Translations under genes and position numbers: made by a program
DNA from: Kofleriaceae bacterium
GTDB taxonomy: Bacteria; Myxococcota_A; Polyangia; Haliangiales; Haliangiaceae
Direction: 5' to 3'
Assembly: GCA_022842285.1 (NCBI GenBank)
Contig: JALHPV010000019.1
Span: forward strand, 1-45,679
DNA length: 45,679 nt
In this document: in pieces, positions 33,266 to 45,196 of the stretch
How positions within the stretch are numbered: position 1 is the first letter of the stretch
How the letters are laid out: each line of letters begins with the position of its first letter
Notes under the pieces: model-generated
Told to the model about the DNA's origin: nothing
Seen by the model: the letters and a program-made list of their open reading frames with translations, nothing else
Database searches by the model: none

Positions 33266-36682
<3,417 letters not shown>

Positions 36683-37446: not shown

Positions 37447-39678
37447 CTACTCCGCCGACTTCAGGACGATCTTCACGCTGTACAGGAAGCACGCCGGCGT
37501 CACCACGCCGTCCTGGTTCTTGTAGGGCGCGTACTTCCACGTCTTGATCGCGGACTGCAGCTGCGTCGCGACGCCGTCGGGCGCCTTCTTGATGTCGACG
37601 GAGGAGACCTTGCCGCTCTCGCTGATGCAGACCTTCGCCATCACCTGACCCGAGGTCGCGCCTCCGGTGCTCTTCAGCGTCGGTAGCTCGCCCGAGAGCT
37701 TCTTCACGGCGGTTGCGGACACGGCGGCGATGGTGGGCTTGGCCGGCTGGACCGGCGGCTTGGTCGGCTGGACCGGCGGCTTGGTCGGCTGGACCGGCGG
37801 CTTGGTCGGCTGGACCGGCGGCGGATCAGGCTGCTTCACCGGCTCCGGCTCCACGGGTGGCGGCGTGACGATGGCGACCTCGGGCTTCTTGGGGGCCGGC
37901 TCGACCTTCTCGGGCTTCTTGTCGCGATCGGGCTTCCGCGGCTTGTCGGGTCGGTCCGGCTGGTCCGGGGCCTCCTTGCCGTCGCCCGGGCCGCCCGTGG
38001 CGGGCTTCGTGATCGCGGCATCGATGGGCGTCCCCGGCTGCGCGTCGGTCGTCTCGTCGGGATCGGCCACGCCCACTCCAGGCGCCACCGTCGGCTCGCG
38101 CGTCGGCGCGGGATCGCTGCTGCCACCGCCACGTTCCGGCGGCGTCTGTGTCGCCGCCGAACCAGTCTCCGTCGTCGTCGCGATCGGCTCGCTGGTCGGC
38201 TTCATCTCGTCGGAGCCCCCGCGCAGCACGACCATGGCCACGGCGAACCCGCCACCCGCGAGCAATAACAGCAGGAGCAGCAGCGGCCACATCCTCTTGC
38301 GACCGTCGGCCGTTGGTGGCGGCGCCGGAATCGGTGCGAGGCTCGGACGCGCGACCTGCGACACCGACGGCTGTGACGGGTGATGCGGAAACGGCACGAC
38401 CGGCAACGACTGCGACGAGGGCGTGTACTCGGGCGTCTGCGGTGGGGGCGTGGGCGGTACCTGCTGCACGCCGCGGACGGGCGAGGGCAGCGAGACCGAG
38501 AAGTCGAGCATCGGCATCGCGGGCGCGGTCTGGCGCGCCTGGCCCTGGACGCCCGACATGACCGCGTTCCCAGGAGTGCCCGTCGGCGTGCTCTTCCGCG
38601 CGATGGACGTCTCCGGCGGCGCCGCGAGTGGCAGCCGGTCCCGCATCGCATACGGCTGATCCGAGGGGGTGTAACCGGGCGTCGGGGGACCGCCGGTCGC
38701 CCGCGAGTTGCGCATGCTGGCGCGCCCCGAGACACGTCCGCCCTCCTCGGGCGGAATCTGCGCGAGCCAGTCCTGCACGTCACGCGCGGACCAATGCAGG
38801 CCCGCGTAGCGAGACACCTCGTCCAGCATCGAGCGGAAAGCGCCGGCACTCGGCAGGCGATCCCGTGGGTTGCGCGCAAGGGCGGCGAGCACCACGTCGT
38901 CGAGGCCGGGCGGCACGCTCGCGTTGTGATCCGACGGCCGCGGAATCGGAGCCTCGCGGATCTTCATGATCGTCTCGAGGTCTGTCGTCGCCGAGAACAG
39001 CGGGCGCAGCGTCAACATCTCGTGCGCGACCACGCCGAGCGAGAACACATCGCTCGCGGATCCCAGCGCCATCCCGGCCGCGGCCTCGGGCGCCATATAC
39101 GCGTACTTGCCCTTCACCCGGCCACCGTCGGTGTGGAGCTGCGCGCTCGACGCCTTCGCGATACCGAAGTCGATCACCTTCATGTGACCGGTGGGCGCGA
39201 CGATGAGGTTCGACGGCGAGACATCGCGGTGGACGATGTCGAGCGGCTCGCCGGTCTCGTCATCGACGAAGGTGTGCGCGTAGTGGAGGGCCTCGCAGGT
39301 CTCCGAGAGCAGCGCGAGCACGACGGGGAGCGGGATCAGCTGGCCGACCCGCCGCGCGTAGCGCAAGAGCCGCCGCACGTCGGGGCCGTCGACGAGCTCC
39401 ATCGCGATGAAGTACGTCTCGGCGACTTTGCCGAAGTCGTAGATCTGCGCGATGTTGGGATGCACGAGCATGGAGGCGACCTTCGCCTCCCGGATGAACG
39501 ACTCGACGAAGTCGTCGTCCTCCGACAGATGCGGCAGCATCCGCTTCAGAGCAACCTGCCGCTCGAACCCGGCAATGCCCTGCTTCTTGGCGCGGTGCAC
39601 CGTGGCCATGCCGCCGGCGCCCAGCCGTTCGAACACGGCATACGGACCGAACGATTCGCTCGGTCGCGCGTCGCTCAC
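37447..39678 (-). CDS. Ser/Thr kinase fused to TonB-like periplasmic domain
   Basis: 743 aa from a GTG at 39678; GGGAGG lies 10 nt upstream, directly after the receptor stop. The kinase domain (about 13-290) has Gly loop GAGGMATV, Lys45 in VALKRML, HRDVSPSNLIV (150-160), DFG (170-172) and YMAPEAA. A Pro/Ser-rich segment leads to one membrane span (about 464-485, PLLLLLLLLAGGGFAVAMVV). Next is a Pro/Lys/Glu spacer like that of TonB (KPRKPDRDKKPEKVEPAPKK, then PVQPTKP repeats). The C-terminal domain (about 660-741) contains GQVMAKVCISESGKVSSVDI, QSAIKTWKYAPYKNQDG and FLYSVKIVLK, which matches the TonB C-terminal pattern by eye. It follows a TonB-dependent receptor gene by 16 bp, suggesting that the TonB-like end contacts that receptor. 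Confidence 0.9.
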   Translation of the reverse strand: MSDARPSESFGPYAVFERLGAGGMATVHRAKKQGIAGFERQVALKRMLPHLSEDDDFVESFIREAKVASMLVHPNIAQIYDFGKVAETYFIAMELVDGPDVRRLLRYARRVGQLIPLPVVLALLSETCEALHYAHTFVDDETGEPLDIVHRDVSPSNLIVAPTGHMKVIDFGIAKASSAQLHTDGGRVKGKYAYMAPEAAAGMALGSASDVFSLGVVAHEMLTLRPLFSATTDLETIMKIREAPIPRPSDHNASVPPGLDDVVLAALARNPRDRLPSAGAFRSMLDEVSRYAGLHWSARDVQDWLAQIPPEEGGRVSGRASMRNSRATGGPPTPGYTPSDQPYAMRDRLPLAAPPETSIARKSTPTGTPGNAVMSGVQGQARQTAPAMPMLDFSVSLPSPVRGVQQVPPTPPPQTPEYTPSSQSLPVVPFPHHPSQPSVSQVARPSLAPIPAPPPTADGRKRMWPLLLLLLLLAGGGFAVAMVVLRGGSDEMKPTSEPIATTTETGSAATQTPPERGGGSSDPAPTREPTVAPGVGVADPDETTDAQPGTPIDAAITKPATGGPGDGKEAPDQPDRPDKPRKPDRDKKPEKVEPAPKKPEVAIVTPPPVEPEPVKQPDPPPVQPTKPPVQPTKPPVQPTKPPVQPAKPTIAAVSATAVKKLSGELPTLKSTGGATSGQVMAKVCISESGKVSSVDIKKAPDGVATQLQSAIKTWKYAPYKNQDGVVTPACFLYSVKIVLKSAE
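37736..37819 (-). repeat. Four 21-bp tandem repeats in the TonB-like spacer
   Basis: Four adjacent 21-bp units; the first (on the plus strand) differs by one base from the other three, which are identical. On the coding strand each encodes PVQPTKP (PVQPAKP in the variant unit). The array keeps the reading frame, so copy-number change would lengthen or shorten the periplasmic spacer by 7 residues. Confidence 0.95.
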
Positions 39679-39694
39679 TGAGCCGCCGCCTCCC

Positions 39695-42490
39695 TCACAG
39701 GGTCAGCTCGAGCTTCGTGTAGTAGAAGCCACCGTTGATGCCGAACTGACTCACGTTACGGCTATAGATGAACCGGCCATCGCTGATATTGGCTGCTTTC
39801 GTCTGCCGATCCGGAAACGTGTTGAACACGTTGTCCGCGCCGATGGTCAGGCGCGTGCGCGATCCGAGCTTTACGTCGAGGCTCACGTCGAAGATGGCTT
39901 TCGCTCCGAAGGTCTCGTCATTGGCCGAGTTGTCGGGCTCGAACTTGACCCGTCCATAGTAATTCCCACGCACCAGCGCGCCGAAGGATTTCACGGAATA
40001 GCGGATGGCGGCCGTCCCCTTCTGGCGGGGCAGGGCGTCCTCGATCCGGTTCTCGGCGAGCCGGCCGAAGAAGAACGTCTTCAACTGTTCGGAATCAGCG
40101 CCGAATCGCTCCCGCAGCGACCGCGGGATGTTGATGTCGGTCACAGTGGTCCTGGTGAAGTTGGCCGACACCGTCGTTCCCAGGGTGCCCGCGTCGCCCA
40201 GCTCGACCGAGTAGTCCGCGACCACGTCGACGCCCACGGTCTTGGTATCGATGGCGTTGGCGAAGAACTGCGCCTGACTCACTCCCGGGAAGGGCGTGAG
40301 GATGTCGGCGACGATCGGGTTCGCGTTCGTGAACTGGCTCGTGAGCACGATGCGGTCACGCAGCCTGATGTAGTAGGCGTCCGCCGTGATCGAGAGGCCC
40401 TCCTTGGGGCGGAGCGTCGCGCCGCCCGAGAAGTTGATCGCCGTCTCCTCGTTCAGGTCCGGAATGCCGAACGCCTTCGTGACGGGGCTCGAGTTGTTGC
40501 TCGTGAGCACCTGCGCCGGCTCGAGCACCCCCGTCATCGGATTCGGCAAGAACTGCGTGGCGATGTTCGAGAACCAGAGCTGGTGCAGCGACGGCGCGCG
40601 GAAGCCGGTGCTCGCCGCGGCCCGCAGCGCGAAGCCATCGAGGATCTCGACGCGGGTGGCCGCCTTGCCGATGATCGAGTTACCGAAGTCCGAGTACTGC
40701 TCGAAGCGGCCACCGAGGTCGGCCGTGATGCGCTTCGTCAGCTTGCTCTCGAAGCCCATGTACACGCCGACGCTGTTGCGGGTGCGATCCACCTCGTTGC
40801 TCGGCTGGAAGCCCGGGAACACCTGCGCGCCTGGAGCCTTGGGCTGCGGCGGATCGCCGAACGTCTCCGTGCCGAGCGAGTAGCTGGCCTCGTCGCCAGC
40901 CGTGATCTGGTAGTTCTCGACGCGGAACTCACCACCCGCGACGAACGAGAGCGACTCGAGCGCCTCCCACGGAATCGTGCGAACCACGTCGACGTTACCG
41001 AGGGTCTGAGCGAACGCGAGGGTGCCAGCCTCGAACGTCGTCGGGCTCGATGTCCCGAGCGATGCGTTGACGCTGTTGTCGATGTTGAACGCGAACTCGT
41101 TGCGGCCGTGGGTCAGGCTGACGTCGAGGTCCCAGTTCTCGCTCTTCTTGCGCCACCCGGTGGTGAGCGCGAGGTCGCGAATATTCGTCTGGATGATCGG
41201 CAGGAAGCCGTCCGGATAGAACTCGGGGACGTTCTGCGACGTCTGCTTGGGGAAGCGATAGAAGCCGCCGGCCTCGCCCCGCCGGTACGACACATCGCCG
41301 TTCGCGTAGAACGCGGCGCCGTCCTTCGTCGGGAGCTCGAGGTTGAAGCCACCCTGGCCCGCGGTGGCCTCCGCCTCGCCGATACGCATCTCGAAGTCCG
41401 AGCGCGACAGGTTGTTGTCGGCGAGGATGGCGTCATCCATGGCGCGGTCGTCGGTGTAGACCGTGCCCGTGAAGTCACCGGTGCGATTGGTCGCGCCCTT
41501 CGACAGGAACATGCCGGTCAGGTTCACGAAGCCCGACTCGCCGAGCTTGAAGCCGTAGTTCGCGGCGGTCTGGAACTGAGCGCCGTCCCCCGAGCCCGTC
41601 ACGCCCACGGTCTGCGAGAGCTCGACCTGATCGACCGCGTCCTTCGTGACGATGTTGATGACGCCGGCGATCGCATCCGATCCGTACTGCGAGGCCGCGC
41701 CGTCGCGCAGGATCTCGATGCGCTTGATCATGAACGTCGGAATCGCGTTGAGGTCGACACCGACGGTGCCGCGCCCGAACGTGCCGTTCAGGTGGAGCAG
41801 CGCGCTGCGATGGCGGCGCTTGCCGTTCACGAGGACGAGCACCTGATCTGGCCCCAGGCCACGCAGGCTTGCCGGGTCGATGTGATCGGTGCCATCGGCG
41901 ATCGTCTGCGGCGTCGCATTGAAGCTCGGCGCGAGGCGATGCAGGACGCGCGACGTCTCGGTGGTGCCCGTCCGGGCCATCTCCTGCGCCGTCACGATGT
42001 CGACCGGGACGGTGGTCTCGAGGTTGCTGCGCGCGGTGCGCGAACCGACGACGACGATGACTTCCTCGCCGCCCTCGACCTCGGTGGCCGCCACCATCGA
42101 GATGTCGAGCGACACCTCCCCACCCGCGCTGATGTTCACCGTGCGCCGCACCGTCTCGAAGCCGGCGAGCTCGAAGCGCAGCGTGTACTTGCCGGGGGCG
42201 AGCTCGAGCTGGAAGTTACCCACGTCGTCGGTCGCGACTGTCGTGGTCGTCCCGTCGACGACGACCTGCGCGCCGGCCAGGGGCGCCTCGAGCTCGGGCG
42301 AATCGACGACGCCGGTCACGATGCCGGTCGTCGGCTCTGGCTCCTCGGACGGCGCGTCCGTCGGTGGGTCCTCCACCGGTGGTGCACCATCCTCGGGCGG
42401 CATGCCGTCCTCGGGCTGTGCGCCCACCGAGGTTGGGGCCAACAACAGCGCAGCGATGCCCGCCGCAAACCAGGTGCGAATGTGCGTCAC
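39695..42490 (-). CDS. TonB-dependent outer-membrane receptor
   Basis: 931 aa from GTG 42490 (THIRTWFAAGIAALLLAP); another GTG at 42514 is in frame but spoils the signal peptide. The signal ends near VGAQ and is followed by an acidic Pro linker. A carboxypeptidase-regulatory-like Ig domain comes next (GIVTGVVDSPELEAPLAGAQ, GNFQLELAPGKYTLRFELAG). The plug has PVDIVTAQEMARTGTTETSR, ASLRGLGPDQVLVLVNGKRR and IKRIEILRDGAASQYGSDAI/AGVINIVTK. The long beta-barrel ends in aromatic FYYTKLELTL, the usual outer-membrane insertion signal. The substrate is unknown. It is first in an operon with the kinase-TonB gene. A linker before the plug (EEVIVVVGSR) may be the TonB box region. Confidence 0.95.
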   Translation of the reverse strand: MTHIRTWFAAGIAALLLAPTSVGAQPEDGMPPEDGAPPVEDPPTDAPSEEPEPTTGIVTGVVDSPELEAPLAGAQVVVDGTTTTVATDDVGNFQLELAPGKYTLRFELAGFETVRRTVNISAGGEVSLDISMVAATEVEGGEEVIVVVGSRTARSNLETTVPVDIVTAQEMARTGTTETSRVLHRLAPSFNATPQTIADGTDHIDPASLRGLGPDQVLVLVNGKRRHRSALLHLNGTFGRGTVGVDLNAIPTFMIKRIEILRDGAASQYGSDAIAGVINIVTKDAVDQVELSQTVGVTGSGDGAQFQTAANYGFKLGESGFVNLTGMFLSKGATNRTGDFTGTVYTDDRAMDDAILADNNLSRSDFEMRIGEAEATAGQGGFNLELPTKDGAAFYANGDVSYRRGEAGGFYRFPKQTSQNVPEFYPDGFLPIIQTNIRDLALTTGWRKKSENWDLDVSLTHGRNEFAFNIDNSVNASLGTSSPTTFEAGTLAFAQTLGNVDVVRTIPWEALESLSFVAGGEFRVENYQITAGDEASYSLGTETFGDPPQPKAPGAQVFPGFQPSNEVDRTRNSVGVYMGFESKLTKRITADLGGRFEQYSDFGNSIIGKAATRVEILDGFALRAAASTGFRAPSLHQLWFSNIATQFLPNPMTGVLEPAQVLTSNNSSPVTKAFGIPDLNEETAINFSGGATLRPKEGLSITADAYYIRLRDRIVLTSQFTNANPIVADILTPFPGVSQAQFFANAIDTKTVGVDVVADYSVELGDAGTLGTTVSANFTRTTVTDINIPRSLRERFGADSEQLKTFFFGRLAENRIEDALPRQKGTAAIRYSVKSFGALVRGNYYGRVKFEPDNSANDETFGAKAIFDVSLDVKLGSRTRLTIGADNVFNTFPDRQTKAANISDGRFIYSRNVSQFGINGGFYYTKLELTL

Positions 42491-42535
42491 GATCCCCGAG
42501 GTGCACGATACCACTGGGGAACCGTGGACCGGGGC

Positions 42536-43120
42536 TCAGGGAGCCGGGATCGGGGCTCCCAGCGAGGTCACGATGGGAATCAGGCCCGACCAGTGGGGCA
42601 GGACGAGGTCCTCCGCGGAGTCGACGGGCGGACCACTGCGGATCTTCGCGCTCGCCTCGGTGATGGGCACCTCGATGACAAGCGTCGCGCGGAGCTCGCT
42701 GTCGTCGGGCCCGCGCGTGTGCAGCGAGCGCTGCGGAGCCAGGCGATCGACGAGCGCATCGAGCACCGCCCGCTTCTGGTCGTGAGTGTCGACGACGCGG
42801 CCCCGCCCGAACACGACGACCGAGCGGTAGTTCATCGAATGATGGAACGCAGACTTCGCGAGCACGAGTGCATCGAGCAGCGTGACCGTCACGCAGCACG
42901 CGCCACCGGCGAGTGACCTCAGCATGTGATTCGCCACGGCGCCGTGCAGGTAGATGGCATCGTCGACGCGCACGAAGGCCGTCGGGATCACGACGGGACT
43001 CCCCTCGGCGACGAAGCCCACGTGGCAGACGTAAGCCTCGTCGAGGATGGCGTGGATGGTGGCGCGGTCGTGGCTGCCGCGATCGGCGTGTCGACGCACT
43101 CGGGTGCGGTCCGTCAGCAT
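42536..43120 (-). CDS. Pyridoxamine 5'-phosphate oxidase-family flavoprotein
   Basis: 194 aa from ATG 43120 (MLTDRTRVRRHADR); the longer frame is antisense to the MocR gene. The split-barrel FMN-binding fold is visible: AYVCHVGFVAEGSPVVIPTA, AIYLHGAVANHML, GGACCVTVTLLDALVLAKSA, then FHHSMNYRSVVVFGRGRVVD. This matches the nitroimidazole-resistance/Pyridox_ox_2-type PNPOx group, not biosynthetic PdxH. It is divergent from a MocR regulator with three GGTCC/GGACC half-sites near the shared start region, an arrangement often seen for MocR-controlled PNPOx-like genes. The reaction is unknown. Confidence 0.9.
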   Translation of the reverse strand: MLTDRTRVRRHADRGSHDRATIHAILDEAYVCHVGFVAEGSPVVIPTAFVRVDDAIYLHGAVANHMLRSLAGGACCVTVTLLDALVLAKSAFHHSMNYRSVVVFGRGRVVDTHDQKRAVLDALVDRLAPQRSLHTRGPDDSELRATLVIEVPITEASAKIRSGPPVDSAEDLVLPHWSGLIPIVTSLGAPIPAP

Positions 43121-43140
43121 GGCGTCACCTTCGTCTACCA

Positions 43141-43185
43141 ATGGACCATGCAAAAGGTCCAAGATGGAGAAGTCATGTGGTCCAT
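43141..43185 (+). promoter_or_regulatory. Candidate MocR operator
   Basis: Three related half-sites occur: TGGACC at 43142-43147, GGTCCA at 43156-43161 (the exact inverse, 8 nt apart), and TGGTCCAT at 43178-43185, the exact inverse of ATGGACCA at 43141-43148. The last lies inside the first codons of the MocR gene. MocR regulators commonly bind such sets of direct and inverted half-sites near their own start. Binding is inference; the repetition is seen directly. Confidence 0.55.
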
Positions 43186-45196
43186 CGTGCGTGCCCGTGT
43201 CCCGGTGTTCGTCCAGCTCGCCGAGGCGATCGTCGCGGACGTGCGGCGCGGCGCGTTGCGGGCCGGCGACAAGTTGCCGTCGACGCGCACGCTCGCCGCG
43301 CAGTTGAACGTGAACCGCAACACGATCGTCGCCGCGTATGACGAGCTGATCGCGCAAGGCTGGGCCGTGGCCGAGGGACCGGCCGGCACGCGCATCGCGG
43401 CGGATATCCCGGATCGGAATGCTCGTCCTCCGTCAGTGGCGACGCACATGGCGGCGCGCGCGGCGTTCGCGGTCGTCGAGGTCGAGCCGGTGGTGGTCCC
43501 GTTTTCGCTGCGGGCTCGTGCGCCCGTCGGTACGCGTGCCCCCGTCGGCACTCGTACCCCCGTCGGCACTCGTGCCCCGGAGTTTCGACGCCAAGTCGCC
43601 CCAGACGCCAAGGGATCGATGGGGCGGACGCACGACCGTGCTTCGGAGGTTGGACGCCAAGTCGCCCCAGACGCCAAGGGATCGATGGGGCGGACGCACG
43701 ACCGTGCCCCGGAGGTTGGACGCCGAGTCGCCCCAGACGCCAAGGGATCGATGGGGCGGACGCACGACCGTGCCCCGGAGGTTGGACGCCAAGTCGCCCC
43801 AGACGCCAAGGGATCGATGGGGCGGACGCACGACCGTGCTTCGGAGGTTGGACGCCAAGACGCCGTAGACGCCAAGGGATCGATGGGGCGGACCCGCACT
43901 CGTGCTTCGGCGGTTGGACGCCAAGTCGCCCCAGACGCCAAGGGATCGATGGGGCGGACCCGCACTCGTGCTTCGGAGGTTGGACGCCACGACGTCATCG
44001 ACGCCAGGGGATCGATCGGGCGGACGCACGACCGTGCCCCGGAGGTTGCTACGGCCGAGCCGCTGTATTCGCTCTCGGCGGGTGTGCCGGATCCGCGGCT
44101 CGCGCCGACGACGGACCTCGCGCGCGCGTATCGGAGAGCGCTGCGGGGGCAGGCGGGGCGCGACGCGCTGTCGTATGGCGATCCGCTCGGCGTGCCGCGG
44201 CTGCGCGAGGCGATCGCGGAGCTCGTGCGCACCACGCGTGGAATTCCGGCGACGGCCGACAACGTCATGATCGTGCGCGGCAGTCAGATGGGCATCGAGC
44301 TCGCGGCGCGCCTGTTGATCGAGCGCCCGTCGGTCGACACCGCAGCTCGGCGCGGGGGCGGTGGTCGTGCGCGCGGCGGCATCGCGGCCGTGGAGGCGAT
44401 CGGCTATCCGCCGGCGTGGCGGTCATTGGCCGGCGCGGGGGCGAAGCTGGTCGGCGTGCCGCTCGACGAGGCGGGCCTCGTCGTCGACAAGATTCCGGCC
44501 GGTGTCCGCTGCGTGTACACCACGCCGCATCACCAGTATCCGACGACGGTGACGCTGTCACCCGCGCGACGAATGGCCCTGCTCACGCGCGCGCGGCGCG
44601 ATGGCATGGCGATCATCGAGGACGACTACGACTACGAGTTCCACTTCGAGGGGCGGCCGGTGGCCCCGCTCGCGGCGACGGATCGAGGTGAGACCGTCAT
44701 CTACGCGGGCACGCTGTCGAAGACGCTCGCGCCGGGGCTGCGGCTCGGGTTCGTCGTCGCGCACGAGCGAGTCATCGAGCAGCTCGGACGGCTGCGGTTC
44801 GCGATCGATCGGCAGGGCGATCAGGTGCTCGAGCTCGCGGTGGCAGCGCTCCTCGAGGACGGCGAGCTGCAGCGGCATGCGCGCAAGCAACGACGCGTGA
44901 TCGCGGCGCGGCGCGAGGCGTTGATCAGCGCGCTCGGTAAAGAGCTGCGCGACAGCGTCGAGGTCGTCGTGCCGCCGGGTGGCATCACGCTGTGGGTGCG
45001 CGTCGCCGACGACATCGATCTCCCGGCGTGGCAGAGGAAGTGCGCGACCTTGGGCGTGGCCTTTGCGACGGGGAAGGACTACGCGCTCGACGGTAAACCG
45101 CTGCCGTTCATGCGGCTGGCGTTCGCGCAGTACAGCGAAAGTGAGCTCACCGATGCGGTGAGGCGCATGCGGCGCGCGCTATCGTCCGCCGCATGA
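43175..45196 (+). CDS. MocR-type GntR regulator with aminotransferase domain and repeat-expanded linker
   Basis: 673 aa from ATG 43175, set by GGAG 5 nt upstream. The GntR winged helix (about 1-75) includes VFVQLAEAIVADVRRGALRA, KLPSTRTLAAQLNVNRNTIV and AAYDELIAQGWAV. The C-terminal fold-type I aminotransferase-like domain (about 300-670) has YSLSAGVPDPRLAPTTDLAR, SYGDPLGVPRLREAIAEL, AIIEDDYDYEFHFEGRPVAP and GTLSKTLAPGLRLGFVV with the PLP Lys near residue 516. Between them lies an unusual linker: three APVGTR-type units, then seven 22-residue units such as RQVAPDAKGSMGRTHDRA. Typical MocR linkers are far shorter. It probably regulates the divergent PNPOx gene and perhaps itself, with PLP as effector. 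Its stop overlaps the next ATG. Confidence 0.93.
   Translation: MWSIVRARVPVFVQLAEAIVADVRRGALRAGDKLPSTRTLAAQLNVNRNTIVAAYDELIAQGWAVAEGPAGTRIAADIPDRNARPPSVATHMAARAAFAVVEVEPVVVPFSLRARAPVGTRAPVGTRTPVGTRAPEFRRQVAPDAKGSMGRTHDRASEVGRQVAPDAKGSMGRTHDRAPEVGRRVAPDAKGSMGRTHDRAPEVGRQVAPDAKGSMGRTHDRASEVGRQDAVDAKGSMGRTRTRASAVGRQVAPDAKGSMGRTRTRASEVGRHDVIDARGSIGRTHDRAPEVATAEPLYSLSAGVPDPRLAPTTDLARAYRRALRGQAGRDALSYGDPLGVPRLREAIAELVRTTRGIPATADNVMIVRGSQMGIELAARLLIERPSVDTAARRGGGGRARGGIAAVEAIGYPPAWRSLAGAGAKLVGVPLDEAGLVVDKIPAGVRCVYTTPHHQYPTTVTLSPARRMALLTRARRDGMAIIEDDYDYEFHFEGRPVAPLAATDRGETVIYAGTLSKTLAPGLRLGFVVAHERVIEQLGRLRFAIDRQGDQVLELAVAALLEDGELQRHARKQRRVIAARREALISALGKELRDSVEVVVPPGGITLWVRVADDIDLPAWQRKCATLGVAFATGKDYALDGKPLPFMRLAFAQYSESELTDAVRRMRRALSSAA
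43517..43570 (+). repeat. Three 18-bp tandem repeats at the start of the MocR linker
   Basis: Three in-frame 18-bp units, slightly diverged (for example CGTGCCCCCGTCGGCACT at 43535-43552), plus a partial fourth. They encode APVGTR/TPVGTR. The array stands immediately before the 66-bp array, so two independent repeat expansions hit the same linker. Confidence 0.9.
43587..44048 (+). repeat. Seven 66-bp tandem repeats in the MocR linker
   Basis: Seven units with exact 66-bp period (the ATCGAT core occurs at 43615, 43681, 43747, 43813, 43879, 43945 and 44011). Units 1-4 are nearly identical; unit 5 and the last unit have diverged most. Since 66 is divisible by 3, the frame is kept and each unit adds 22 residues. 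All units keep GACGCCA..GGGATCGAT. There are no unique spacers, so it is not a CRISPR array. Confidence 0.95.

Follow-up and report, generated by a model that had tools for sequence, protein, structure and literature searches.

A gene pair in a soil bacterium related to myxobacteria raises the question of whether a receptor in the outer membrane can signal directly to a protein kinase in the cytoplasm. In the window (the whole 45,679-nucleotide stretch of contig JALHPV010000019.1 of a Kofleriaceae bacterium), a TonB-dependent receptor gene is followed by a gene for a Ser/Thr kinase that ends in a TonB-like domain (Table 1). Activators of receptor-type Ser/Thr kinases in Gram-negative bacteria are, to our knowledge, mostly unknown. 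Here the way in which the sensory end of the kinase would bind is known (strand addition to a TonB box), and the adjacent gene encodes a candidate partner; activation of the kinase from the outer membrane can therefore be tested directly. If such signaling occurs, TonB domains serve as sensors, not power strokes.

Organization of the Locus

Both genes are on the minus strand, and the kinase gene starts 16 nt after the stop of the receptor gene, as an earlier sequence-only reading had noted; the product of the receptor gene has both plug and barrel. The putative ribosome-binding site of the kinase gene stands 10 nt 5′ of its GTG. In the receptor ORF the second GTG (42490, the coordinate used in the sequence-only reading) is a likelier start than that at 42514. 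The region yielded no sigma-70-like promoter, and its terminator-like matches do not outnumber those in shuffled sequences. A search of plasmid DNA returned short receptor or kinase pieces only.

Table 1. Positions of the receptor and kinase genes and their parts in the window
Feature	Positions	Strand	Basis
Ser/Thr kinase gene with C-terminal TonB-type domain, 743 aa, GTG start	37447..39678	-	ORF list, Pfam
Kinase domain, residues 13-276	38851..39642	-	Pkinase 2.9e-35; catalytic motifs
Single membrane span, residues 466-484, without His or SHLS motif	38227..38283	-	Hydropathy and residue check
Periplasmic Pro-rich spacer, residues 485-648, 42 Pro in 164	37735..38226	-	Predicted; residue count
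TonB-type C-terminal domain, residues 649-743, with C684 and C730	37450..37734	-	Profile, fold
GGGAGG, likely ribosome-binding site of kinase gene	39689..39694	-	Sequence read; function inferred
TonB-dependent receptor gene, 939 aa; likelier start 42490	39695..42514	-	ORF list, Pfam
Receptor N-terminal extension CarboxypepD_reg, residues 66-140	42095..42319	-	Pfam
TonB-box-like segment EEVIVVVGSR, residues 150-159	42038..42067	-	Conserved in nine receptors; function inferred
Receptor plug domain	41660..42022	-	Pfam, Plug 4.1e-20
Receptor beta-barrel domain	39827..41308	-	Pfam, 1.4e-32

The Kinase and Its Membrane Span

The kinase motifs, single membrane span, and Pro-rich spacer described from the sequence are all confirmed. 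The protein is a Hanks-type Ser/Thr kinase with GxGGM, VALK, REAK, HRD, and DFG all present; its catalytic domain is complete and is joined to the membrane span by a Pro-rich cytoplasmic linker. Beyond the membrane, the spacer is 26% Pro, as in the Pro-rich spacer of a TonB energy transducer.

In TonB and TolA, an SHLS motif within the membrane span makes the contact with the motor (PMC12204202). No such motif is found in the kinase span; His is absent from the span in all ten kinases of the clade that includes the window protein (the window clade) and is present in 9 of the 13 TonB-like relatives checked. Neither exbB nor exbD is common to the loci that carry the receptor–kinase pair, and the exbB genes of the genome, which has six ExbB-like genes, lie on other contigs than the kinase. 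Because the span is without the motor-binding His of most related TonBs, the kinase is unlikely to energize the receptor or to be pulled by ExbBD, which limits the earlier interpretation. The missing motif is not decisive, since the TonB-like proteins of L109, L113, and L121 adjoin exbB and are also without the span His.

The C-Terminal Tail Is a TonB Domain

A search with the TonB_C model (PF03544), the check proposed with the sequence-only reading, gave the kinase 15.8 bits (E 0.019), below the cut-off of 24.6. The genome's own TonB (contig C121) scores equally low with this model (15.7 bits), so the shortfall of the tail is a lineage effect. A profile built from 20 kinase tails, with no TonB included, retrieved 17 PDB sequences up to an E value of 10; 16 of these are TonB (best 6.8e-06). 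The AlphaFold model of the tail (pLDDT 84.8), made from an alignment that contained one TonB row, has two strands, a helix, and a strand, the TonB-like fold that had been anticipated. Its best structural match is the receptor-bound TonB of the FoxA complex (Z 9.6, 84 residues, rmsd 2.3); FusB and E. coli TonB come next, and TolA scores lower. Foldseek places the same structures first (E ~0.002).

Relatives of the tail point the same way. A survey of the phylum found the tail also on proteins of ~240–280 residues that combine a Pro-rich region with an N-terminal span; at 18 such loci exbB and exbD adjoin the gene. The non-kinase proteins closest to the tail are TonBs encoded next to exbB-exbD. 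The genome of the window itself has a TonB gene of this tail type, which precedes exbB, two exbD genes, and a gene for an Oar-like receptor; this layout resembles the Ton-Oar system of Myxococcus xanthus, in which TonB C-terminal domains interact with receptor N-terminal domains (PMC6434023). Single-protein models are borderline, yet profile, fold, and relatives agree, and they establish the tail as a TonB C-terminal domain of a local, Cys-bearing kind.

An assignment of the tail as a gliding (AgmX/PglI) domain was rejected, since its nearest stand-alone relatives adjoin exbB and exbD; two of these relatives score above a TonB-family cut-off and none above that for AgmX/PglI. With the latter model (NCBIfam NF033768, cut-off 40), the kinase reaches 18.9 bits as a whole protein and 23.6 bits for the tail alone.

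Two residues, C684 and C730, are invariant in the tails and are the only cysteines outside the kinase domain, as well as the only predicted periplasmic ones; from their strand positions, they could form a disulfide. The last strand is longer in the window clade, with 10–12 residues after the CF motif in 10 of 10 tails versus 7–8 in 22 of 26 compared tails without receptor linkage. TonB complexes suggest by analogy that this strand would take the TonB box.

The Receptor

TonB-dependent receptors have a plug, a 22-strand-type barrel, and a TonB box. In the window receptor, plug and barrel are recognized by Pfam, together with a CarboxypepD_reg extension, and a TonB-box-like segment is indicated by conservation (NETIVVVGSR in relatives, among nine receptors); the N-terminus is signal-peptide-like. 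The marks of a FecA-type signaling receptor, which are an STN domain and a neighboring FecR and sigma factor, were not found: Pfam gives no STN match in the receptor, and no FecR is among the neighbors common to the pair loci.

Outside the genus, related receptors (identity 53% and less) were found at 80 database loci, and the window kinase is absent beside the receptor in all 80. A few of these loci, in other phyla, have a FecR-type gene upstream (L152, L174, L175, and L192) or, in some Bacteroidota, a gene for a YfiR-domain histidine kinase downstream (L151:12595-14412, also L156 and L167); one of each was confirmed by Pfam, the others by similarity. These neighbors hint that the receptor subfamily takes part in signaling elsewhere. 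The window's own genome also encodes, in one frame, an 879-aa receptor-like protein with TonB_C near the N-terminus and a plug (L128:4655-7291, contig C79).

Conservation of the Pair

A receptor ortholog (E < 1e-60) is present in 9 of the 16 genomes of the genus, and the window-clade kinase is present in the same nine. In eight of these the two genes are adjacent on one contig and in the same order, with a gap of 3–24 nt measured by the first start codon; in the ninth (G012) the kinase follows a 3′ piece of the receptor, the 5′ piece of which ends another contig. Of the seven genomes without the pair, three have a completeness of 90% or more, and these three contain neither gene. The exceptions are in G015, which has one extra, unlinked window-clade kinase and one unlinked, more distant receptor.

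Only the receptor and kinase genes are common to the pair loci; the flanks differ, except in the close relatives L044 and L045. The pair has thus been retained amid changing surroundings. The sequence-only reading had expected kinase orthologs beside receptors, and they were found beside orthologous receptors in all nine genomes; the pair is a two-gene receptor–kinase unit, linked beyond chance, since it is kept in nine genomes and its neighbors change.

Other Kinases with TonB-Type Tails

A second clade of kinases with the same type of tail is found across the family, including the window's genome (contig C137). These PEGA-domain Ser/Thr kinases share with the window kinase a homologous kinase domain, a span, and a TonB-type tail; they differ in having two PEGA domains (in the one member scanned), a mostly shorter last strand, and no adjoining receptor. 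They are never beside receptors; their conserved neighborhood has genes judged by eye to be Kbl-like and dehydrogenase-like. A kinase-domain tree separates the two clades (100/99). This sister clade shows that a TonB-tailed kinase need not have a receptor gene next to it, a second limit on the earlier interpretation; a receptor-coupled kinase is the best-supported reading of the window locus. Possible partners of the tail also include receptors other than this one and a different protein of the envelope.

A third kinase with a span and a TonB-type tail is encoded in the same genome (L129:5448-7398, contig C117), with its reading frame interrupted by a brief stretch of N; what appears to be a second, similar unit follows it. 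Another family of the class has a kinase (L231:5565-7529) with a TonB-type tail that resembles the TonBs of that family. The resemblance may reflect a separate fusion, but the support is not significant: an independent origin was set aside because the tail groups only weakly with those TonBs (83/33) and a single kinase clade is not rejected (p 0.248).

Proposed Receptor-to-Kinase Signaling and Its Alternatives

In the proposed mechanism, the TonB box of the receptor, perhaps along with the N-terminal extension, would become exposed to the periplasm, presumably in a ligand-dependent manner. The kinase, anchored in the inner membrane, would span the periplasm on its Pro-rich spacer, and its TonB-type domain would dock on the receptor by strand addition. 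Docking, or the resulting tension or clustering, would change how active the cytoplasmic Ser/Thr kinase is, and the kinase would report the state of the receptor to its targets; it probably does not power transport, given a span without the usual TonB motor-binding motif. The analysis establishes the domain identities, the fold, the absence of the motif, and the joint inheritance of the two genes, from which we infer the contact, activation, direction, ligand, and substrates of this relay.

Docking is favored by the TonB fold and relatives of the tail, the position of those relatives beside exbB/exbD, a pair kept with changing flanks, the conserved TonB-box-like segment, the longer last strand, the M. 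xanthus precedent (PMC6434023), and the FecR and YfiR-kinase neighbors of related receptors elsewhere. Against it count the same tail on a sister clade without a receptor and the unlinked kinase and distant receptor of G015. Judged from these comparisons, the chances are about even that the tail binds the TonB box of the receptor and relays the receptor's state to the kinase. More tentatively, and at somewhat less than even chances, we propose direct signaling from a TonB-dependent receptor to a cytoplasmic Ser/Thr kinase by way of a captured TonB domain without its former motor contact. Such a relay would need a single protein between outer membrane and kinase and would be separate from the FecR/sigma route.

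The main alternative reverses the direction of control: the tail, itself not energized, would compete with TonB for the TonB box, and the cell would use the kinase to gate uptake by this receptor through kinase level, kinase state, or phosphorylation of Ton components. The same anatomy and linkage, and a span without the usual TonB motif, would be expected here too, but simple competition has no need of a complete kinase, and we consider this rather unlikely. It is unlikely, too, that the two genes are merely co-regulated. In that case the tail would bind a different envelope protein, or TonB-dependent receptors in general, and the kinase would act in a process that simply calls for the same expression. 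The sister clade, with its tail beside Kbl-like and dehydrogenase-like genes, and the unlinked window-clade kinase of G015 would fit such an arrangement; however, conservation at these loci is confined to the pair, with different flanks, and receptor and kinase occur in the same 9 of 16 genomes. Very improbable is a force transducer, in which an ExbB/AglR-type motor would drive the kinase to read or control force in the manner of GltG-AglR, since all ten window-clade spans are without His and no motor gene is among those common to the loci, even though the genome has its ExbB-like genes, the exbB-linked proteins without the span His keep the missing motif from being decisive, and GltG, with FHA and TonB domains, provides a precedent (PMC3169522).

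Comparison with Known Systems

The window kinase resembles the TonB of ExbB-ExbD systems, including M. xanthus Ton-Oar, in C-terminal fold and sequence, Pro-rich spacer, and inner-membrane anchor; in contrast to TonB, a kinase replaces the short cytoplasmic end, the span is without the SHLS-type His, and no exbB or exbD adjoins. With GltG/PglI and GltJ/AgmX of Myxococcus gliding, it shares a cytosolic domain, one span, a Pro-rich region, and a TonB-like end, but the cytosolic domain is a kinase (FHA in GltG) and the gene lies beside a receptor rather than in a glt cluster. GltG, in which a cytosolic FHA domain is combined with a TonB domain and for which two-hybrid assays show interaction with AglR (PMC3169522), is the nearest precedent for a cytosolic signaling-type domain joined to a TonB domain. 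FecA-FecR-FecI likewise pairs a TonB-dependent receptor with a protein of the inner membrane that extends into the periplasm; the window pair is without STN, FecR, and sigma factor and has instead a kinase, with proposed docking by a TonB domain.

A search of open-access journal papers found no published description of a kinase with a TonB domain. The kinase span without an SHLS-type His, the sister clade that is never receptor-linked, the longer last strand, and the cysteines of the tail are new here.

Neighboring Genes in the Window

A Pyridox_ox_2 family gene (42536-43357, minus strand) ends ~45 nt before the likely receptor start and is on the receptor's strand; it is not common to the other pair loci. 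Convergent with the TonB-tailed kinase gene is a gene for a Ser/Thr kinase fused to WD40-type repeats (33266-36682, plus strand). A GntR/aminotransferase (MocR-like) gene (42926-45196, plus strand) has an in-frame repeat between its two domains, with a unit of ~22–24 residues (RQVAPDAKGSMGRTHDRAPEVG and variants).
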